In this document: one piece after another, positions 46,145-62,613 of the stretch
Position numbering within the stretch: the first letter of the stretch is position 1
Layout of the letters: each line of letters opens with the position of its first letter
Assembly (NCBI GenBank): GCA_947369165.1
Contig: CANBKJ010000002.1
Location: 16,076 to 80,075, forward strand
Direction: 5' to 3'
DNA length: 64,000 nt
Source of the DNA: an uncultured Lachnoclostridium sp.
GTDB lineage: Bacteria; Bacillota; Clostridia; Lachnospirales; Lachnospiraceae
Made by a program: the position numbers and the translations under genes
The notes under the pieces: generated by a model
What the model was told of the DNA's origin: nothing
The model's database searches: none
The model's input: only the letters and a program-made list of their open reading frames with translations

Positions 46145-46428
46145 GTTAAATAGTTCTCCTTATTTTTCAAATAGTATCTATATCCGCCATAGGAATGACA
46201 AAATGTTTCTATATATTGTATCTTGAAACAACCAGAGAAGTCAATTCTAAAAAGAAACAAAATGTGAATAAATTGTAAATAATGTAAAAACAAGGGGGGA
46301 TGTGAGAGGGGGCTAAAATGAAAAATAGCCTTGCATATTGGACAGAGTGGTGATATAATGATGATAATTTCATTGCGGAAGAAATGGAGTTTTTCCGCAG
46401 TAAGAAAAACAATTTAGGAGGTATTTCG

Positions 46429-49356
46429 ATGAGACAAATCGGTACACAGTCACACAAGTGTTTCAGAAGGATTGTCACATTTTTACTGGCGATTGCCATG
46501 GTGTTGACATCTTTGGCTGTTTCATCCGTTGACTCTCAGGCAGCGACTAAGAAGGTTAAAAAAGTTTCTATCGGAGTCAAAGTGGGCGGTTCTGGCATAC
46601 TTGTATTGAAAAAAGGACAGAAGAAAAAGTTAAATGTTTCTGTGACCCCTAAAAAGGCGAGCAAAAAGGTATCTTACAAGTCAAGTAAAAAATCCGTTGT
46701 AAGTGTCAGCTCAAAGGGTGTTGTCAAAGCTCGCAAGAGCAAAGGTTCTGCGAAGATCACAGTGACATCCAAGCAGAATAAAAAGAAAAAAGCAACGATC
46801 AAGGTTAAGATTGGTACACCGGTAAAGAAAGTATCTATCGATTCCAAAGCTGTTTGCTCATGGAGCAGTGCGAACTGGGTACTTAAAACAGTAAACGGAC
46901 AGATGCAGAAGGTGTATCCAAAATATAAAGAGACGTTGAAGGTGTCAAAGGGTACATACACGGTCATGAGAGGAAGGGAACTGACTCTTAAGAGTTCAGT
47001 TTCTCCGAAAAAGGCGACCCATAAAAAATTGTACTGGAAATCCAGTAAATCCAGCGTAGCTTTCATTCCGGAGGCGTACAGGGCTGGTACCAGCACAAAG
47101 ATTACCCCCAAAAAAGAGGGAACAGCTAAGATTACAGCAACAGCCATGGACGGAAGCGGCAAGAAGGCAAGTGTGAAGCTGAAAGTTGTTAAATTCATTA
47201 CGGACAAGACAGCAGCACCAACAGCGCCTCCAGATACCAGGAAGTATACGATGGTCGAGGATTTTGAGAGTTATCCAGTGGGAACAACCTGGACGAAATA
47301 CACATCTGCCGGAAAGAATTCCGGACATATGACAGTGGTACAGGATCCGGAGAATCCGGAAAATAAATGTCTGGAGATCAGGATGGATGGACCGGATAAA
47401 GCATTTGACTTTGCGCCGATATTCAGTGTAGATACTGCCAACCTGAAAGATTCTGAAGGAGTTTCCGCAGCAGGAAAGACGCTGGGCAATTATACCACGA
47501 TCCGTGCAGACTGGCGTGTAGTTGGAAATGCACCGGATATTAAGTATAAAGAGATCCGCTGTTATTTTGACCAGTATGGGGCGATCAAGACAACAGATTT
47601 CTTCTCTACTACAAATAATGAGACGGATTCAGCACACGTGGCAGGTCATCCGGAATACCGTTTTGGAAAGAATATTTCCATGGCAACGGGAAGTGATAAA
47701 GAAGTAGGAATAACTCTTCACAACGATAAAGCTTCGAAGGAAGTACATAAGTATCTTCCGACATACCACGATAACGTATGGAAGATGGAGCAGCCGAATA
47801 CCCACTTCATTGAGAATTCCTGTACAAAAGGATTTAAGATGAACGAGGCGCAGGCAAAAGTTGGCTTTGCTACCAGAAACCTGATCTTCAATACATCACG
47901 TATTAAAGAGGCAGACGATACCTTGTTGAATCAGACTAAGTTTGATGTGGTTATGGGCAGTACCTATGAGGGAGATACGCTGTATGCTTCCACAGGTGTA
48001 AGCCTTGTATATTACATGGACAATGTAGCACTTGTATCAGACGATGTTCCGATCACTGGATTTGATCTTGCTTTGAGCGAGGGCGGCGATGTTGTTTATC
48101 CGGGCGGATCTACGAATGTTAATGTGAAGTTTACTCCAGAGGATACGACACAGAAAGACCTTACCTGGACATCGAACAATGCACAGGTGACAGTAAGCAG
48201 TGAAGGAAAAGTAACAGTACCTGAGAACTTTGACTACGCAGGTGCGGAGACCGTTGAGGTCGTGGTTACTGCTACATCTAAGGTAAACCCAGCTCTGACA
48301 AAGAGTGTGACCATTAAGGTCTGCAAGCTGGTACTTCCTACTGTGCCATATTATGTGGATTTAGATGCATGGTATGATCCAGAGCTTTCTGGAGATCTGA
48401 AACCAGAGAAGACCACTGACAGCGAAGGTACTGAGTGCTGGAAGTTTACATTTACAGATAAGAACCAGAGAATTTATTTCAAATTGCCGGAAGAAGTGAA
48501 TCTGTCGGCATATCAGAAGGCAGAGCTGAAAGGATTTTCGACTTTCCAGACCACTCTGGACTTCTATGACAAGAATCTGCCAGAACAGCAGAAAGTAACG
48601 GATGCTGAGTGGTGGAAGAATGCAGCGATAGCGACCCAGCCATTCTATGATGGTTCATCACCGGATCGAAATGATAAAGGTGAATTTGTTACTAGCGGTA
48701 TTGAGACTTTCTCAGAACTGTTGAGTACTTTGAAATCCACCGAGGCGACAGCAGGTAATTTCAATGCAGTCAAATATATTGCCATCGGAAATGCCTGCAA
48801 CGATAATGGTCCAGGAGAGTTCTTTGTTTACTCTCTCAGACTGACACCAAAACCACAGGGTGATCTGCCGAAACTTCCTGTTGCAGATATGCCGGATGGA
48901 AAGTTTGCAGAGTCCATGGAAGGTGAAAGTGTTTCTCTTCTGGGAGCCACAAATTCGACAGTAGCTGAGGGCGATGCAAAAGACGGTACACATTATCTGA
49001 AAGTAGCCGAGGGAGATAAACCATCAATCCTGATCGACAACCGTGCCGGTGAAGAAGAGAAGCAGTATATGGTAAGTGCATGGGTAAGAGCCGAGGATGC
49101 AAATTCCGGTACTGTGACTGTACTCAGTCCGAAAACCTATATGAAGGCAGAGTACGAGAATTACGAAGATTATGATAAGGTTGAAAAGTTGATTTGGAAC
49201 CAGGCAACAAAACAGGATTTGTCAGGAAACAGTGAATGGGTTCAGATCAGAGCAAGAATCCGGGTTAGTGCAGGAAAGATATCAGAAGTAGGATTTGGTC
49301 CTGAAGATGATACGGCATCCTTTGCATTCCAGCTGGATAATATTACGATAGAGTGA
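46429..49356 (+). CDS. Secreted Ig-like/carbohydrate-binding-like surface protein
   Basis: Signal peptide, Lys-rich Ig-like repeats, VEDFESYPVGTTW jelly-roll-like module, Big_2-like segment; no recognised catalytic motif. Confidence 0.8.
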   Translation: MRQIGTQSHKCFRRIVTFLLAIAMVLTSLAVSSVDSQAATKKVKKVSIGVKVGGSGILVLKKGQKKKLNVSVTPKKASKKVSYKSSKKSVVSVSSKGVVKARKSKGSAKITVTSKQNKKKKATIKVKIGTPVKKVSIDSKAVCSWSSANWVLKTVNGQMQKVYPKYKETLKVSKGTYTVMRGRELTLKSSVSPKKATHKKLYWKSSKSSVAFIPEAYRAGTSTKITPKKEGTAKITATAMDGSGKKASVKLKVVKFITDKTAAPTAPPDTRKYTMVEDFESYPVGTTWTKYTSAGKNSGHMTVVQDPENPENKCLEIRMDGPDKAFDFAPIFSVDTANLKDSEGVSAAGKTLGNYTTIRADWRVVGNAPDIKYKEIRCYFDQYGAIKTTDFFSTTNNETDSAHVAGHPEYRFGKNISMATGSDKEVGITLHNDKASKEVHKYLPTYHDNVWKMEQPNTHFIENSCTKGFKMNEAQAKVGFATRNLIFNTSRIKEADDTLLNQTKFDVVMGSTYEGDTLYASTGVSLVYYMDNVALVSDDVPITGFDLALSEGGDVVYPGGSTNVNVKFTPEDTTQKDLTWTSNNAQVTVSSEGKVTVPENFDYAGAETVEVVVTATSKVNPALTKSVTIKVCKLVLPTVPYYVDLDAWYDPELSGDLKPEKTTDSEGTECWKFTFTDKNQRIYFKLPEEVNLSAYQKAELKGFSTFQTTLDFYDKNLPEQQKVTDAEWWKNAAIATQPFYDGSSPDRNDKGEFVTSGIETFSELLSTLKSTEATAGNFNAVKYIAIGNACNDNGPGEFFVYSLRLTPKPQGDLPKLPVADMPDGKFAESMEGESVSLLGATNSTVAEGDAKDGTHYLKVAEGDKPSILIDNRAGEEEKQYMVSAWVRAEDANSGTVTVLSPKTYMKAEYENYEDYDKVEKLIWNQATKQDLSGNSEWVQIRARIRVSAGKISEVGFGPEDDTASFAFQLDNITIE

Positions 49357-49462
49357 AAATAATCACTTATTAAATAACCATGTATTAAGCGGGGGCCTTC
49401 CCCCGGGAAGGCCACTGTTTAAGGAATTTTATAAATTCTATAAAAATTAGGAGGTAAGAGTT

Positions 49463-51313
49463 TTGAAAAGAAATTTCAAAAGAACTTTAGCTAAAGTTAT
49501 GGCCGTTGCCCTGACAGTTGCTCTGGCAGGAACTGCAGCACCGGAAGCTGACGCAGCTAAGAAAGCGAAGCTTTCCGCGAAATCCGTAACAGTAGTTAAG
49601 GGAAAGAGCAAAAAAGTAACTATTAAGAACGTTAAAGCAAAGCAGGTTAAAAAACTGGCAGTAACAACTTCTAACAAAAAGATTGCTACTGTAAAGAAAA
49701 AAGGAAAAACAGCTTTTAATGTAACTGGTAAAAAGGCTGGAAATGCTAAAGTTACAGTTAAAGTTACAGTTAAAGGAAAGAAGAAAGCTACAAAGCTGAC
49801 TTTGAAAGTAAAAGTTAAAAATGCTACGACACCTAAGGTGACGACGGCACCTACAGCAGTTCCTACTACGGCACCTACAACAACACCTGTTGTGACACCG
49901 CCGACTACTACAGATGCACCACAGACGACACAGACACCACAGAAGACAAAGAAACCAACTCCAACGCCTACGCCGGCATGGGAGGTAAATCCCATTAAGA
50001 ATATCCAGCTTGGTGGTAACGCAGCTTCTAAGCTGACTTACTTCAATGTGGATGAGAATGGTACTGCTGATCTGATCCTCAATGAGAGTGCAAAATATGG
50101 TAATGTATATACCTATTTTGATGTTGTTCTTCCTGAAGGATCTACAGTAAAAGATCTTTACAGTGTAAAATTTGATTTTGACGCTGTATCCGGAGACTTG
50201 GAGAATAAGAAGGTATATCTTCTTGCAGGAAGCACAGATAATGATTCACTGGATGCATTCCCAGGAGAGTTGCTGTATGAGTGGGATCCTGTAAATCAGT
50301 TTACAAATATTAAAAATATTGCCGTTGATGAGTATGCAATCAGCTTCAGCAATGCCGGTCTTCTGGAGGATCAGGAGCTTGAGATCGATACAGCAATACT
50401 TGAAGATATGGAACTTAAAGACAACAAGATTCGTTTTAGTATTTTTGCAATCCTGGATGGAGTGAAGGGTGCAAATACCGAGTATAAAGTTGGTAACATT
50501 CGTGTATTAAGCAAAAATGGTGTGACAGATGGCAATGATAAGCCTTCCGATAAGATTGACGCTACAGAAGGTATCGCTCCAGCTGGACTTGTTGCACTTG
50601 GCAGAGGAACCATTGGAGTAGGAGATGAGACAACTGCTGAGGCTGTTGTAAAGAATGCTTCTATCGTTGGTGATATTAAAGAAGCTAAGTGGAGTACAGA
50701 TGGAACAGATGTAGTTGAGCTTAAAGCTAACGCAGATGATCCTAAGCTGGCAACTATTACTGCTAAGGCAGCTGGTGTAGAGACCGTTTCTGTAGAAATT
50801 ACTACGACAAAGGATAAGAAAGTCACATTTACAAAACAGATTACTGTTACTGCTGAAAAACCTGTAATCGAAGACATTACATTAGAGTTGACAGAGAATA
50901 ATGTAGTTACCATTGCTAAGGATACCGCACAGGGTAAAGGAAAGGGAACCATTGATATTACAAAACTTATCGAGGGTGTTGATCTTGCTAACTATGAGAA
51001 CATTACGATGTTCGGTAGTGCTACCTATAAGGGTGAATCCTTAGAGGATGATGGAATCCTGACCCTGCAGTTTGTAAATACGGATGCTTCCGACACAGGT
51101 CTTGTGACCGTTCACAACATTAAGGGAAGCAGCCTGGCAGAAGGTAAAGGAATTGTTGCTGAAGGTTCTCTTGAGACACTTATAAGTGGTTCCAGCATGT
51201 TGAAACTTCTCTTCCAGAATTCTGTAGCACTTACAGATGGTGACCTTGTAATTACAATTGATAAGGTTGTACTGAATGCAAAGAAAGATGCAACAGAGGA
51301 GCCAGCAGAGTAA
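49463..51313 (+). CDS. Secreted Lys-rich Ig-like surface protein (TTG start)
   Basis: aggaggt RBS; signal peptide; KSKKVTIKNVKAKQVKKLAVTTSNKKIATVKKKGKTAFNVTGKKAG; Thr/Pro linker. Confidence 0.8.
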   Translation: MKRNFKRTLAKVMAVALTVALAGTAAPEADAAKKAKLSAKSVTVVKGKSKKVTIKNVKAKQVKKLAVTTSNKKIATVKKKGKTAFNVTGKKAGNAKVTVKVTVKGKKKATKLTLKVKVKNATTPKVTTAPTAVPTTAPTTTPVVTPPTTTDAPQTTQTPQKTKKPTPTPTPAWEVNPIKNIQLGGNAASKLTYFNVDENGTADLILNESAKYGNVYTYFDVVLPEGSTVKDLYSVKFDFDAVSGDLENKKVYLLAGSTDNDSLDAFPGELLYEWDPVNQFTNIKNIAVDEYAISFSNAGLLEDQELEIDTAILEDMELKDNKIRFSIFAILDGVKGANTEYKVGNIRVLSKNGVTDGNDKPSDKIDATEGIAPAGLVALGRGTIGVGDETTAEAVVKNASIVGDIKEAKWSTDGTDVVELKANADDPKLATITAKAAGVETVSVEITTTKDKKVTFTKQITVTAEKPVIEDITLELTENNVVTIAKDTAQGKGKGTIDITKLIEGVDLANYENITMFGSATYKGESLEDDGILTLQFVNTDASDTGLVTVHNIKGSSLAEGKGIVAEGSLETLISGSSMLKLLFQNSVALTDGDLVITIDKVVLNAKKDATEEPAE

Positions 51314-51439: not shown

Positions 51440-53848
51440 ATGCACAAAAATGTAAAAGGTGCATTAGCCAAAACGCTGATCGCTGCCATGGCTATTACTA
51501 TGGCTGGTGTGCAGGCTCCAGATTCGTCTGCCGCAAAAAAACCAGCACTTAGCACGAAAAAAGCGACAGTAGAGGTTAAAAAATCCAAGAAAGTAACGAT
51601 TAAAAATGTAAAGGCAAAGGCAGTCAAAAAGCTTACAGTTAAGTCCAGTAAGACGAAGATTGCAACTGTCAAGAAAAAGGGAAAAACAGCATTTACTATC
51701 ACTGGTAAGAAAGCAGGAAAAGCGACAATTACTGCGAAACTTACTTTGAAGGGGAAGAAAAAGGCCACAAGTCTTAAAGTCCAGGTTACTGTGAAGAAGG
51801 CGGCACCAAAAACGACAAGTGCTCCTGATGTGACCAGCACACCGACCGCAGCTCCGACGAATGCGCCAACTACGCCACCTGCGGGAACACCAGGAAATCC
51901 AACTTCAACACCAGGGGATGACAATGGACCAAAACCAGACTATACAGCCGCTCCTAACGCTGGTGAAAAGCGAATCAAACATAAGAGTAGTATAGCAGAT
52001 CCTAAGATCAATAATATTACGATCTGGGGGCTTCGTGATAATCCATACCTGGAAACCGGATATGATTATACTCAGTTTGGAACTTTCTCAGGACTGTTTT
52101 CAAAATGGTATGATGCAAAGGATAACTTTAAGACTCTTCACGAATTGTTTACAGCAAGTACAGCTCAAAGCCTTAATTCCATGAAATTGATGGCTGATGA
52201 GACTACTGATACAGAGGGTCCTCTTTATACAATCGGTGAGACCAGTGATAAGAGTGTAAAATCAATTGTTTCTACTGGTAAGTTGAATTGGGATAAAAAA
52301 GAGTATTTCGACATGGTTGAGCACTCAGTAGATTTCAATTCCAGAACAACTTCTGATAATACAGATCAGAGAGTAACTGTTGTTGATGCGGGTACTTTAG
52401 AGCCGACAGATAGTGGAAACGGACCAGCTGTACTTGTATCTGGCCGTAAAGATAACTGGCATGGAATTCAGATTGAAATCACAGATTACTTAGTAGATCC
52501 TTCCAAAGACTATCGAATCTCTATCGATGTAAGACATACGAATCCTAAGCATAACGGTAGTGCTTTCTACGGACAGATTTTGTTTGTAGATGAAAATGGT
52601 GAAGAGGCTAATGACAGGCCGATGCTTGTTCAGGAGAGAGTAACTTCTGGAAGCTGGAAAACACTTGCAGCCAACTATTCCACCAATGGGGTAAACGCAG
52701 CCAAGATTTTTGTATGTATGAACTGGTATGGAAATACTACAACTCATGATGATTTCTATATCAAAGATGTAAAGGTTACAGAGATTGCTTCTGATAAAGA
52801 GGATGCTTCCGCAGAGACCTTGAAATATTCTCCGCTTTATGAGAATACAGAAGATAAATTCGGATTTACCATTGGCGGTGTAATTTCAAATACGAACTTC
52901 AAAGATGAGAGTTATAAGGCTGTACTTAATAGACATTTTTCAAGTATGACCATTGACAATGATCTGAAATTGTATGGACTTCTTGATCAGGATGCGACGG
53001 TTGCAAATGCAAACGGTGACGGTATGCCTGTTCTCAGGAAAGACTTCAGTGGAGAGAATATGGTTAAGTGGGCATATGAGAATGGTATTGGCGTTCGTGG
53101 ACATACCATCGTGTGTGATTCTAACATGGACACAAACTGTAAATTCTTCTTCCATGAAGACTACGATACTACAAAACCGCTGGCAAGTAAAGAGGTTATG
53201 CTGGAGCGTTTGAGAAGCATCACCAAACAGGCAATTATGTATTTTGAAGAGAAGTATCCTGGAACAATTCACACATGGGATGTTGTAAACGAAGCGATTG
53301 ATACAGGAAACGGCCAGTATGAGAAAGGTGATGATCGTAAAATCCAGATCAATAATAACCTTTTCTACGATACGATTGGACGTGATTATGTAGAGTATTC
53401 CTTCCTCTTTGCAAGAGAAGCTGTGGATGAGCTGAAAGCACTGTATCCAGATCGTGACATTAACATCAAACTTTTCTATAATGACTTTGGTTGCTTCCAG
53501 AGAAACAAGCGTGATGCGATATGTGCATTGATTGAAAGCATCAAGGCTTTCGGAAACGAAAGAGGAAAAGGTGATTTGATTGATGGTGTAGGTATGCAGT
53601 GTTATCTTGGAAGCAGTACAAGTGAGTTTAGAGATGATCTTCTTCTTCCGACAGAGAAGGCAACTGCTGACAGTATCCCGAATGCTGTATTTAAGTTCAC
53701 TGACTTAGGAGTTCAGGTTCAGTTTACTGAGCTGACCATCAAGAACTATGATGAGTCCAGAAATGCAGCACAGGCAGCATATTATAAAAAATTCATGCAG
53801 ATGGCCATTGACATCAACAATGGAACTATGCAGCCAGTATTAGAGTAA
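51440..53848 (+). CDS. Secreted GH10-like enzyme, apparently circularly permuted, with CBM-like region
   Basis: HTWDVVNEAID and VQVQFTELTI retain GH10 acid/base and nucleophile motifs; terminal-strand motif ITIWGLRDN lies near the N-terminus. Confidence 0.85.
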   Translation: MHKNVKGALAKTLIAAMAITMAGVQAPDSSAAKKPALSTKKATVEVKKSKKVTIKNVKAKAVKKLTVKSSKTKIATVKKKGKTAFTITGKKAGKATITAKLTLKGKKKATSLKVQVTVKKAAPKTTSAPDVTSTPTAAPTNAPTTPPAGTPGNPTSTPGDDNGPKPDYTAAPNAGEKRIKHKSSIADPKINNITIWGLRDNPYLETGYDYTQFGTFSGLFSKWYDAKDNFKTLHELFTASTAQSLNSMKLMADETTDTEGPLYTIGETSDKSVKSIVSTGKLNWDKKEYFDMVEHSVDFNSRTTSDNTDQRVTVVDAGTLEPTDSGNGPAVLVSGRKDNWHGIQIEITDYLVDPSKDYRISIDVRHTNPKHNGSAFYGQILFVDENGEEANDRPMLVQERVTSGSWKTLAANYSTNGVNAAKIFVCMNWYGNTTTHDDFYIKDVKVTEIASDKEDASAETLKYSPLYENTEDKFGFTIGGVISNTNFKDESYKAVLNRHFSSMTIDNDLKLYGLLDQDATVANANGDGMPVLRKDFSGENMVKWAYENGIGVRGHTIVCDSNMDTNCKFFFHEDYDTTKPLASKEVMLERLRSITKQAIMYFEEKYPGTIHTWDVVNEAIDTGNGQYEKGDDRKIQINNNLFYDTIGRDYVEYSFLFAREAVDELKALYPDRDINIKLFYNDFGCFQRNKRDAICALIESIKAFGNERGKGDLIDGVGMQCYLGSSTSEFRDDLLLPTEKATADSIPNAVFKFTDLGVQVQFTELTIKNYDESRNAAQAAYYKKFMQMAIDINNGTMQPVLE

Positions 53849-59229: not shown

Positions 59230-60933
59230 TTAAGAATACCATATTCCTGCCGCGTTCATGAAGGAATAGTAGGATTCTTTGGGATCTGTGATCGAGTTGC
59301 CAAAAAGGAGGGGTCTTGTATTTGCCTTCCAGGAACATTTATCATAAAGTCCCCAGACCGTTACACTGGCAATTCCCTTTTCATTTTTGGTTCGGTCCAG
59401 ATTTTTCTGCTTGGATACGATCGTTTCCATCAGACTCTTAATATAGTCTGCCTGGTCTTCATCGGTCTGTCCCAAATCGGTATAGGCCCATTTATCCCAT
59501 CCTTGAGCATCCTTGTCGCCAGTTTTGCCATAATTAATGGAAGCATCCAGTTCGGTAATACTGACTTCAAGTCCTGTATTCAGAAATTTTTCCAGAGTGT
59601 CACCATAACTTTCTATGGTTGGATAATCCACGCATAGATGACTCTGCATACCGATACCGCTACAGATATTCACAGGTTTTCCTGATTTATCAGTGGCATC
59701 GCTGTTGATAAAGTTTACGACGGAAATAATATCATCGGCGCATTCATATGTGTTGTAATCATTTATATAAAGGACAACTTTATCCTGCACACCGTAATTT
59801 TCCAGTTCTTCATAAGCGATCTCAAATGCCTTCTTTACATAAGAAGGTTCCAGCCCCATATCACCATATACGTCGTGCCAGCTGATGCGTGTGGCCTCGT
59901 GAGTGCGGTGTATATATTCATTTACCACATCCCAGGCATAGACCAGTGTTCCGGCGGAACCAGTCAGTTCTTTTTCTTTGTCCATGACATGACGCATCAT
60001 GTTCCTGACAAAGAACTCAAGTCTTGCATCCATTGTTTCAGGAGTCACTTTTGAGTTTCCGGAATAATTTTTAACAAAAAATTCTGCTGGTGTCTGCTGG
60101 TGCCATACAAAAGTATGGCCTCTCATCTGAAGTCCTTCTTTTTTTAGTGTCTCCAGTGTACTGTCTATCGTATCATAATTTATGAGTGGAACCTTGCTCT
60201 CCGGATAATTCTCTGGAATATAATAGCCCATTTCTTTTGCCTGACTTAATGTAATTTGTTGTATGCCTATGCCCCAGGTGCTTAGGGTAGAATCTGGTTT
60301 CATTTCATTTTCAAGAGTAATACTGTTAAAATTTTCCTTGATAAAATCAAGATTGCTGCGGGTTCTCAACTGATCCTTCTTCTCATCATAGCCATAATAA
60401 TTAGCGCAGACCCCCATATGTTCGAAAATACCATCATAGGCTTCCAGAATATTTGATGGTTCCTGCCATGGCTTACTGCTGACTGCCGGAGGCTGGGATA
60501 CTGCTGGTGTTCCGGCTGGAGGATGTGATGTTGCAGCAACGGTAGGTTTCGGTGTGGTGACGGGTTTTTTGTCCTTTTTAACTGTCACAGTAACGACAGA
60601 TGAAACTGGTTTTTTCTTTGTTTTCAGATAGATTTTTGCTGTTACTTTTGTAGTGCCGGTCTTTTTTCCTTTAATACTGGCGGCGAGCTTTCCGCTTTTC
60701 TTGACAGTAACAATCTTTTTGTTTTTTGCTTTCCAGGTGATTTTTTTCAGTTGTTTTTTCTTAACGTTTTTAACCTGAACCTTTTTGGATTTACCAAGGT
60801 TCAGCGTCAACTTTTTGACACTCAGTTTGGGTTTGGCAGCGGCTTCTGCCTGGGAAGCCTGAGTGTATGGTAACACTGCCGAGAGTAAAAGTGTGCCTGC
60901 CATCAGCAGAGCAATGTGTTGTATTCGTTTCAT
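59230..60933 (-). CDS. Secreted GH10 endo-1,4-beta-xylanase with N-terminal Ig-like module
   Basis: TLENEMKPDS, RGHTFVWHQQTP, AWDVVNEYI, VSITELDASI, SVTVWGLYDKCSWK. Confidence 0.92.
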   Translation of the reverse strand: MKRIQHIALLMAGTLLLSAVLPYTQASQAEAAAKPKLSVKKLTLNLGKSKKVQVKNVKKKQLKKITWKAKNKKIVTVKKSGKLAASIKGKKTGTTKVTAKIYLKTKKKPVSSVVTVTVKKDKKPVTTPKPTVAATSHPPAGTPAVSQPPAVSSKPWQEPSNILEAYDGIFEHMGVCANYYGYDEKKDQLRTRSNLDFIKENFNSITLENEMKPDSTLSTWGIGIQQITLSQAKEMGYYIPENYPESKVPLINYDTIDSTLETLKKEGLQMRGHTFVWHQQTPAEFFVKNYSGNSKVTPETMDARLEFFVRNMMRHVMDKEKELTGSAGTLVYAWDVVNEYIHRTHEATRISWHDVYGDMGLEPSYVKKAFEIAYEELENYGVQDKVVLYINDYNTYECADDIISVVNFINSDATDKSGKPVNICSGIGMQSHLCVDYPTIESYGDTLEKFLNTGLEVSITELDASINYGKTGDKDAQGWDKWAYTDLGQTDEDQADYIKSLMETIVSKQKNLDRTKNEKGIASVTVWGLYDKCSWKANTRPLLFGNSITDPKESYYSFMNAAGIWYS

Positions 60934-60972: not shown

Positions 60973-62613
60973 TTATGATTGATGCCATACCTCCGCTGCA
61001 TTTAAAAACTCTTCAAAAGATGGTTTCGGATCGTTGATGGAAGTATCAAAGAGTGTAGGATGGCTGTTTCCTTTTTGCTGGGCTCCGCCTCTCCATGACA
61101 CACTGTCATACAGTCCCCAGATGGTAAGACTGGTGATTCCCTTTGGATTGACTGTTGTGTCCCGGTTTTTCTGGGTATCCACGACCATTTCCATAAAGTC
61201 CCGGACATAAGGCGCCTGGTCTTCGTCGGTCTGACCTTCATCTTTATAATCATAGGATGACTTGTGATCCCAGTTGATGGTTACATCCAGCTCCGTGATC
61301 TGAATCTCCAGACCGGTATCCAGGAACATATCCAATGCTTTTTTATAGACATCGATGGTGGGGCGGTCCACGTCTAAGTGGCTCTGCATACCAATACCGC
61401 TGCAGATCTCAGTTTCTTCCCCTTCATTGATATAATTCACGAGTTTCACGAGATGATCCGCATTGAAATAGGTGTCATAGTCGTTATAAAACAGAGTCAC
61501 TTTATCCTGCGCGTCATATTTTACCAGCTGCTCATAGGCAAGTTCGTATGCTTTCTTTACATAGGTAGGTTTCAAATTCTGTTCGCCGTACACGGAAGTC
61601 CAGGTGGTGATGTTGCCGGCATAACCGTGATGAAGATATTCATTTACCACATCCCAGGCATATACGATACTTCCTGCCTCGCCCGTCAGTTCTATTTCTT
61701 TTTCCATGACATGGGACATAACGGTGGAAACGTAAAATTCCAGTCTTGCGTCCATGACCTCTTTAGTGACAACAGTGGATCCGTTTTTGTAATCCTTAAC
61801 GAAAAACCACTGCGGTGTCTGGCTGTGCCAGAGCAGGGTGTGACCGCGCATTTTAAGGTCATTGTTGTATGCGACTTCAAGGGATTTGTCCAGCTGTTCA
61901 AAGTTGAGCTGGGGCACATAGGTTTCCTTATATGTATCTGGCAGGATGTATCCCTTTTCCCTTGCCTGTTTCTTGGAAATGGGAGTAGCCCAAAAGCCCA
62001 GCAGGGAGTTCGGTTTCATCTCGTTCTCAAGGGTAAAGCTGTTATAATGTTTTTTTACATGGCTCATAATTTCGGCATCCTGAAACTGCCAGCTGTTGAG
62101 ACAGTTTCCAAGATAAGGGAAAATGTCACCGTATTTTCCTAAAATGCTGTTAGGATCTGGTGTTGGAGCTGGCGTTGGTGTTTCCGGTGGTGTTATAATT
62201 GGCGCCGGAGCCGGAGTGGCAGGGGGCGTATTCGTCGGTACAGGGGTTTTCTTCGATGAATCGATCTTCTTCGAAGGCTGGACCGTAACCTTACATTTCA
62301 ATGTAGTAGTTTTTTTACCTTTTTTGATCCGGCAGGTGATCACAGCATTTCCACGTTTTACCCCTGTAATCTTACAACCGTATTTTCCGCTGGCTTTCAC
62401 CTTCGCAATCTTTTTTTTGCTGCTCTTCCAGCTAATCTTTGCCTTAGCAGCATTTTTTACTTTTAATGCTGCTGTTTTACCGGTTTTTACGCTAAGCCTG
62501 CTCTTTGAGAGTTTCGGTTTTTTTGCTGCACCTTCTGCTGCTGTTGGAACCATTAGTGTTATGCAGAGCGCTGCTGTAAGTACCCCGGCGGCTGTTTTTC
62601 TGAATCTTGTCAT
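60973..62613 (-). CDS. Secreted GH10 endo-1,4-beta-xylanase with N-terminal Ig-like module
   Basis: TLENEMKPNS, RGHTLLWHSQTP, AWDVVNEYL, IQITELDVTI, SLTIWGLYDSVSWR. Confidence 0.93.
   Translation of the reverse strand: MTRFRKTAAGVLTAALCITLMVPTAAEGAAKKPKLSKSRLSVKTGKTAALKVKNAAKAKISWKSSKKKIAKVKASGKYGCKITGVKRGNAVITCRIKKGKKTTTLKCKVTVQPSKKIDSSKKTPVPTNTPPATPAPAPIITPPETPTPAPTPDPNSILGKYGDIFPYLGNCLNSWQFQDAEIMSHVKKHYNSFTLENEMKPNSLLGFWATPISKKQAREKGYILPDTYKETYVPQLNFEQLDKSLEVAYNNDLKMRGHTLLWHSQTPQWFFVKDYKNGSTVVTKEVMDARLEFYVSTVMSHVMEKEIELTGEAGSIVYAWDVVNEYLHHGYAGNITTWTSVYGEQNLKPTYVKKAYELAYEQLVKYDAQDKVTLFYNDYDTYFNADHLVKLVNYINEGEETEICSGIGMQSHLDVDRPTIDVYKKALDMFLDTGLEIQITELDVTINWDHKSSYDYKDEGQTDEDQAPYVRDFMEMVVDTQKNRDTTVNPKGITSLTIWGLYDSVSWRGGAQQKGNSHPTLFDTSINDPKPSFEEFLNAAEVWHQS

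Follow-up and report, generated by a model that had tools for sequence, protein, structure and literature searches.

A predicted GH10 xylanase of a gut bacterium with a naturally circularly permuted catalytic barrel

Within the window, the whole stretch of 64,000 nucleotides that was analysed, one gene very probably encodes a secreted GH10-type endo-β-1,4-xylanase (a predicted activity) whose catalytic (β/α)8 barrel is circularly permuted. As judged from alignments, the GH10 domain is shown to be whole and present once, and to be cut between α7 and β8. The usual order of eight β/α units in one continuous GH10 domain is absent; the eighth unit comes first, before a CBM. The layout of the gene is as follows.

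51440..53848, + strand: permuted GH10 gene, 802 aa; open reading frame with Pfam matches to GH10 and CBM_4_9, and the same order in nine copies from seven genomes
51440..51799, + strand: signal peptide and basic Ig-like module, residues 1-120, approximate limits, from the sequence
51800..52003, + strand: Thr/Pro-rich linker and short conserved lead-in, residues 121-188, from the sequence
52004..52150, + strand: relocated β8-α8 unit, residues 189-237, with Trp196 of the WGL motif; from profile hits and a barrel-dependent strand
52253..52789, + strand: CBM22-like β-sandwich, residues ~272-450; Pfam CBM_4_9 on 323-427 and a CBM22 fold match
52823..53824, + strand: GH10 barrel β1-α7, residues 462-795; profile positions 3-307 and a GH10 fold match

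An earlier, sequence-only reading of this DNA had quoted the open reading frame, its C-terminal end (INNGTMQPVLE, directly before the stop) and the N-terminal WGL segment correctly. That reading had also placed the relocated unit near the N-terminus, which holds, at 52001-52160, limits now corrected to 52004-52150; the CBM-like region that it saw after the unit is confirmed and can be specified as CBM22-like by fold and CBM_4_9 in Pfam. The β-sandwich bridges what were originally the N- and C-termini of the barrel, and the basic Ig-like module recurs in many secreted proteins of the genus.

Pfam GH10 (PF00331) matches the protein at 149 bits (E 2.4e-43; gathering cut-off 22.1) over residues 470-794, which correspond to profile positions 6-268 of 311 only. 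Because the best ~150 GH10 domain matches listed from the 39 genomes of the genus all extend to at least position 297, an end missing at position 268 is exceptional in the genus. We built a GH10 profile from 37 non-redundant ordinary GH10s, leaving the permuted proteins out. This profile matched the window protein in two segments, with model positions 308-354 on residues 186-235 (20.6 bits) and positions 3-307 on residues 462-795 (293 bits). The segments meet at model positions 305-310 in all nine permuted copies, always in exchanged order, and moving the N-terminal piece to the end gave a single hit over positions 3-354 at 327 bits. The two reversed hits sought by the earlier reading are thus present, and they abut; a complete domain in two abutting segments of exchanged order is the mark of a natural permutation. 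A profile of the β8-α8 end of ordinary GH10s scored 37.5 bits on the window protein, compared to 13.6 bits for the best of 20,000 shuffles, which excludes a chance match of the N-terminal unit. Each permuted gene has one such unit. A search for a second or decayed β8 unit, in any frame, found none after the stop or in the flanks, in the window and at the orthologous loci, in agreement with the earlier claim that none lies beyond the stop at 53848. A profile of the permuted units run over the genus picked up nine N-terminal units (143-159 bits) and otherwise matched, at 25-46 bits, the C-termini of ordinary GH10s and one lone 74-aa ORF (G031). Against PDB chains, the β8-α8 unit alone gave no significant hit.

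Orthologues with the same unit order, for which the earlier reading had proposed a search, were found in seven of the 39 genomes of the genus. There are nine permuted copies, three in G023 and one apiece in the other six genomes. They are 57-100% identical and come from separate public assemblies of different projects. A scan of one genome per species returned seven loci, in separate assemblies titled Eubacterium, Roseburia and Eubacteriaceae. Outside the genus, the permuted order was found in none of 397 genomes of the family and 399 of the phylum, where all matches lacked profile positions 1-60 and none took in the N-terminal unit. Of seven stronger hits checked there, six were ordinary and the seventh (L102) was broken over two frames in normal order. 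L102 (G660:C1:1916500-1920500) is a CBM-GH10 gene from another family of the phylum, in which an in-frame TAG splits the GH10 over two open frames. GH10 content is uneven in the genus itself, with up to 16 matches per genome in 18 of the 39 genomes and zero in 21.

In the barrel tree and in the unit tree alike, the permuted proteins form a single clade nested in one shared 22-row GH10 subclade, which has support of 100/100 in the barrel tree and 100/99 in the unit tree; the latter comprises 51 columns only, and its placement is readable to subclade level, not within. One change of order is seen on the tree. Since unit and barrel belong to the same subclade, these results argue that a single gene, or closely similar copies, underwent rotation, rather than that an end was captured from nearby tandem GH10s. 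Two such genes lie in the window.

59230..60933, - strand: ordinary GH10 (control), profile positions 18-310 of 311, β8 unit C-terminal
60973..62613, - strand: ordinary GH10 (control), profile positions 10-310 of 311, β8 unit C-terminal

Their C-terminal unit had been noted before, and the profile match to position 310 agrees. They belong to another subclade, and a unit borrowed from these neighbouring tandem GH10s was rejected on that ground. Comparison of four closer orthologues gave dN/dS of 0.03-0.12 for the β8-α8 unit and 0.02-0.12 for the barrel; the linker has the highest values in the protein, 0.24-0.43. By this measure, the unit and the barrel are both under strong purifying selection. 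Collectively, these comparisons of sequences show a single origin of the permuted order and its maintenance by selection. The earlier proposal that β8-α8 was relocated to the N-terminus is borne out by the abutting reversed hits, the orthologues and the congruent unit and barrel trees.

We performed structure prediction on residues 178-802 using AlphaFold2 with nine sequences in the input. The mean pLDDT was 71 (moderate) and the β8-α8 loop was below 50. A strand was predicted for residues 190-195 (INNITI, directly before WGL; fragment 13-18), whose block has pLDDT 81; it is followed in order by seven more barrel strands. In a control fold without the barrel (residues 178-462) the INNITI strand was lost and the block fell to pLDDT 35; most of the CBM stayed at pLDDT ~73-89. 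The strand appears to need the barrel, because residues 190-195 lose it once the barrel is removed. The model of residues 178-802 matched solved GH10 barrels with TM up to 0.80 on the target. The best fold matches of the CBM module in the predicted model were CBM22 domains (TM 0.66-0.69 on the target), and the CBM from the control fold again matched CBM22. The models indirectly support closure of the barrel by the N-terminal unit, and from homology we infer that the residues before WGL pair with β7 and β1.

The positions that bear on catalysis were compared by column with the ordinary GH10s.

53291..53293, + strand: Glu618, acid/base by homology (VVNEA), invariant in all compared GH10s
53729..53731, + strand: Glu764, nucleophile by homology (FTELT), invariant in all compared GH10s
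53114..53140, + strand: Cys559 to Cys567, from the column comparison

E618, E764, N507, K510, H555 and N617 are all invariant, and the permuted protein also retains the remaining residues that nearly all GH10s in the comparison share. By descent and by these aligned residues the protein is a GH10, lying outside the usual unit order of the family. Cys559 is found in all nine permuted copies at the position after GHT where all 37 ordinary GH10s have Trp, presumably W84 in Cex numbering. Cys567 sits in a three-residue insert and is invariant in the nine permuted copies and present in none of the 37 ordinary GH10s. The two changes hint at an altered subsite or a disulfide, and the change of an active-site Trp to Cys could alter or abolish xylanase activity. 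The permuted protein probably cleaves xylan with Glu618 and Glu764; the Trp to Cys559 change and the Cys567 insert are the main reason for caution over a plain-xylanase label.

A module of ~200 residues joins the β8-α8 unit to β1, and the sequence fits closure of the barrel in cis or in trans alike. The N-terminal β8-α8 could thus complete the barrel of a neighbouring molecule in a domain swap, making the enzyme an obligate oligomer. We consider this improbable, as AlphaFold2, folding a monomer, already gives the strand within a single chain, and the strand disappears once the barrel is taken away. Moreover, the N- and C-termini of solved GH10s can be in contact (PMC2893209), so closure in cis needs no long reach. 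A seven-stranded, C-terminally truncated GH10, atrophied or dying, with the N-terminal WGL as a non-functional remnant of another GH10, would have a precedent in the partial GH10 domains proposed as cases of domain atrophy (PMC4432964), and would fit the change of the active-site Trp to Cys in every copy. It is nevertheless very unlikely, given that the motif of the unit is kept in nine copies at a barrel-like dN/dS of 0.03-0.12, that the two pieces are exactly adjacent on the family model, that unit and barrel share a subclade and that the catalytic residues are intact.

The window comes from a draft assembly of 123 contigs, which could raise suspicion of an assembly or sequencing artefact, or of a deletion, confined to this genome, between its tandem GH10 genes. 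The chance of either is close to nil. The same order occurs in seven genomes of different projects at 57-100% identity, and because the nine copies stand in separate assemblies, sequencing error and local deletion are ruled out; a fusion of tandem GH10s is refuted by the same orthologues. Furthermore, no β8 remnant follows the stop, no GH10 debris lies nearby, and the tandem GH10s fall in another subclade.

We therefore favour a permuted barrel that closes within one chain. The chain would run from signal peptide, Ig-like module and linker through β8-α8 and the CBM22-like module to β1-α7. The N-terminal strand would insert between β7 and β1 of the same chain, restoring a working barrel with Glu618 as acid/base, Glu764 as nucleophile and Trp196 in the active site. 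We take the cut between α7 and β8 to fall, as in TIM barrels generally, in a loop on the barrel face away from the active site. The old termini of the barrel would lie near each other at its bottom, which would allow the CBM to complete the ring. This module would become a doubly tethered internal domain and, being held at both ends, should be restricted in its orientation to the barrel. The enzyme is predicted to be secreted and is probably tethered through the N-terminal Ig-like module, in which case the surface tether would now attach at β8.

The permuted gene likely arose from a normal-order CBM22-GH10 gene like L011 that was duplicated or rearranged in tandem; trimming would then have left β8-α8 of one copy before the CBM-β1-α7 of the next. 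Tandem duplication with trimming is likely the simplest route. In the ordinary relative L011/L085 the CBM and GH10 have the same relative position with β8 at the end, which places the permuted form one move away in layout. A direct intermediate of the permutation was not found, and neither was GH10 debris near the permuted gene as a trace of a tandem intermediate. At L103 (G031:C167, 3291-3512, - strand), a 74-aa ORF has an Ig-like tail fused directly to a lone β8-α8 (...KKTGKTMVKAVSIWGWQDDPTL...) and looks similar to the N-terminal half of the permuted protein. It seems to have arisen by internal deletion from an ordinary GH10 gene akin to L012. This shows that a fusion of Ig-like tail and β8-α8 can arise in the genus, as a parallel and not an ancestor.

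The best sequence and fold match of the permuted protein is Clostridium thermocellum Xyn10B (PDB 2w5f, 2wys), a CBM22-GH10 xylanase with, as here, a CBM22-like module beside the GH10 barrel. Xyn10B has the normal order, with β8-α8 at the C-terminus of the barrel, whereas the permuted protein has it at the N-terminus. In Xyn10C-type GH10s of gut Bacteroidetes (Pm25), a CBM4 is inserted between β3 and α3 and the barrel order is unchanged (PMC7848910). Both types thus have a CBM inside the GH10 domain sequence, but in the permuted protein it lies between α8 and β1 and β8 comes first. GH70 glucansucrases are permuted relatives of GH13 (PMC9732880, PMC4919382). Like the protein described here, they have a glycoside hydrolase TIM barrel that is circularly permuted in nature and has known non-permuted relatives. 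We take GH70 to differ in clan, chemistry and cut site. MalS (GH13 subfamily 19), also a secreted glycosidase with a naturally permuted domain order, has its C-domain split into halves flanking the A and B domains (PMC10223318); here, in contrast, the catalytic barrel itself is split between α7 and β8. Transaldolase B and class I aldolase are related by a natural TIM-barrel permutation of whole β/α units (PMC2213659), as are the permuted and ordinary GH10s. That pair is very remote and shifted by two units, whereas the shift here is of one unit within one subclade. A natural permuted GH10 was not found in the open-access literature searched, where absence is not proof; within that literature the permuted order is not previously described for GH10, and permuted CAZymes of other families are known.

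Catalytic TIM barrels with a natural internal permutation are seldom found together with close unpermuted kin. Since permuted and ordinary members of the subclade occur in the same genomes, the steps, costs and benefits of the permutation can be tested on natural pairs. The enzyme is carried by a gut bacterium and some close relatives, with a stably inherited order of units, and represents a different way for a GH10 to incorporate a CBM. If annotated by Pfam only, it would be listed as a truncated xylanase.

Two secreted proteins are encoded upstream of the permuted gene.

46384..49356, + strand: 990-aa secreted Big_2 protein, Pfam Big_2 in three stretches; relatives upstream in L035-L038, L071 and L074
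49463..51313, + strand: 616-aa secreted protein; relatives upstream of the permuted gene in L035-L038, L068, L071, L072 and L074

The conserved order is the 990-aa gene, then the 616-aa gene, directly upstream of and adjoining the permuted gene, and then the permuted GH10. The 990-aa and 616-aa proteins carry related Ig-like modules, and the 616-aa protein had no significant relative in Pfam, NCBIfam or PDB. It is possible, though rather unlikely, that the doubly tethered CBM22, locked against the barrel by the permutation, and the Cys559/Cys567 pair give this GH10 clade a new substrate specificity or a redox- or CBM-gated active site, and that the enzyme works with these two conserved partner proteins. 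The three-gene arrangement is found again at the orthologous loci, and the three G023 copies keep most of it. The gene pair at 46384-51313 of the window travels with the permuted GH10, and the gene group is multiplied in G023. At L071, the homologue of the 616-aa protein is divided between two frames.
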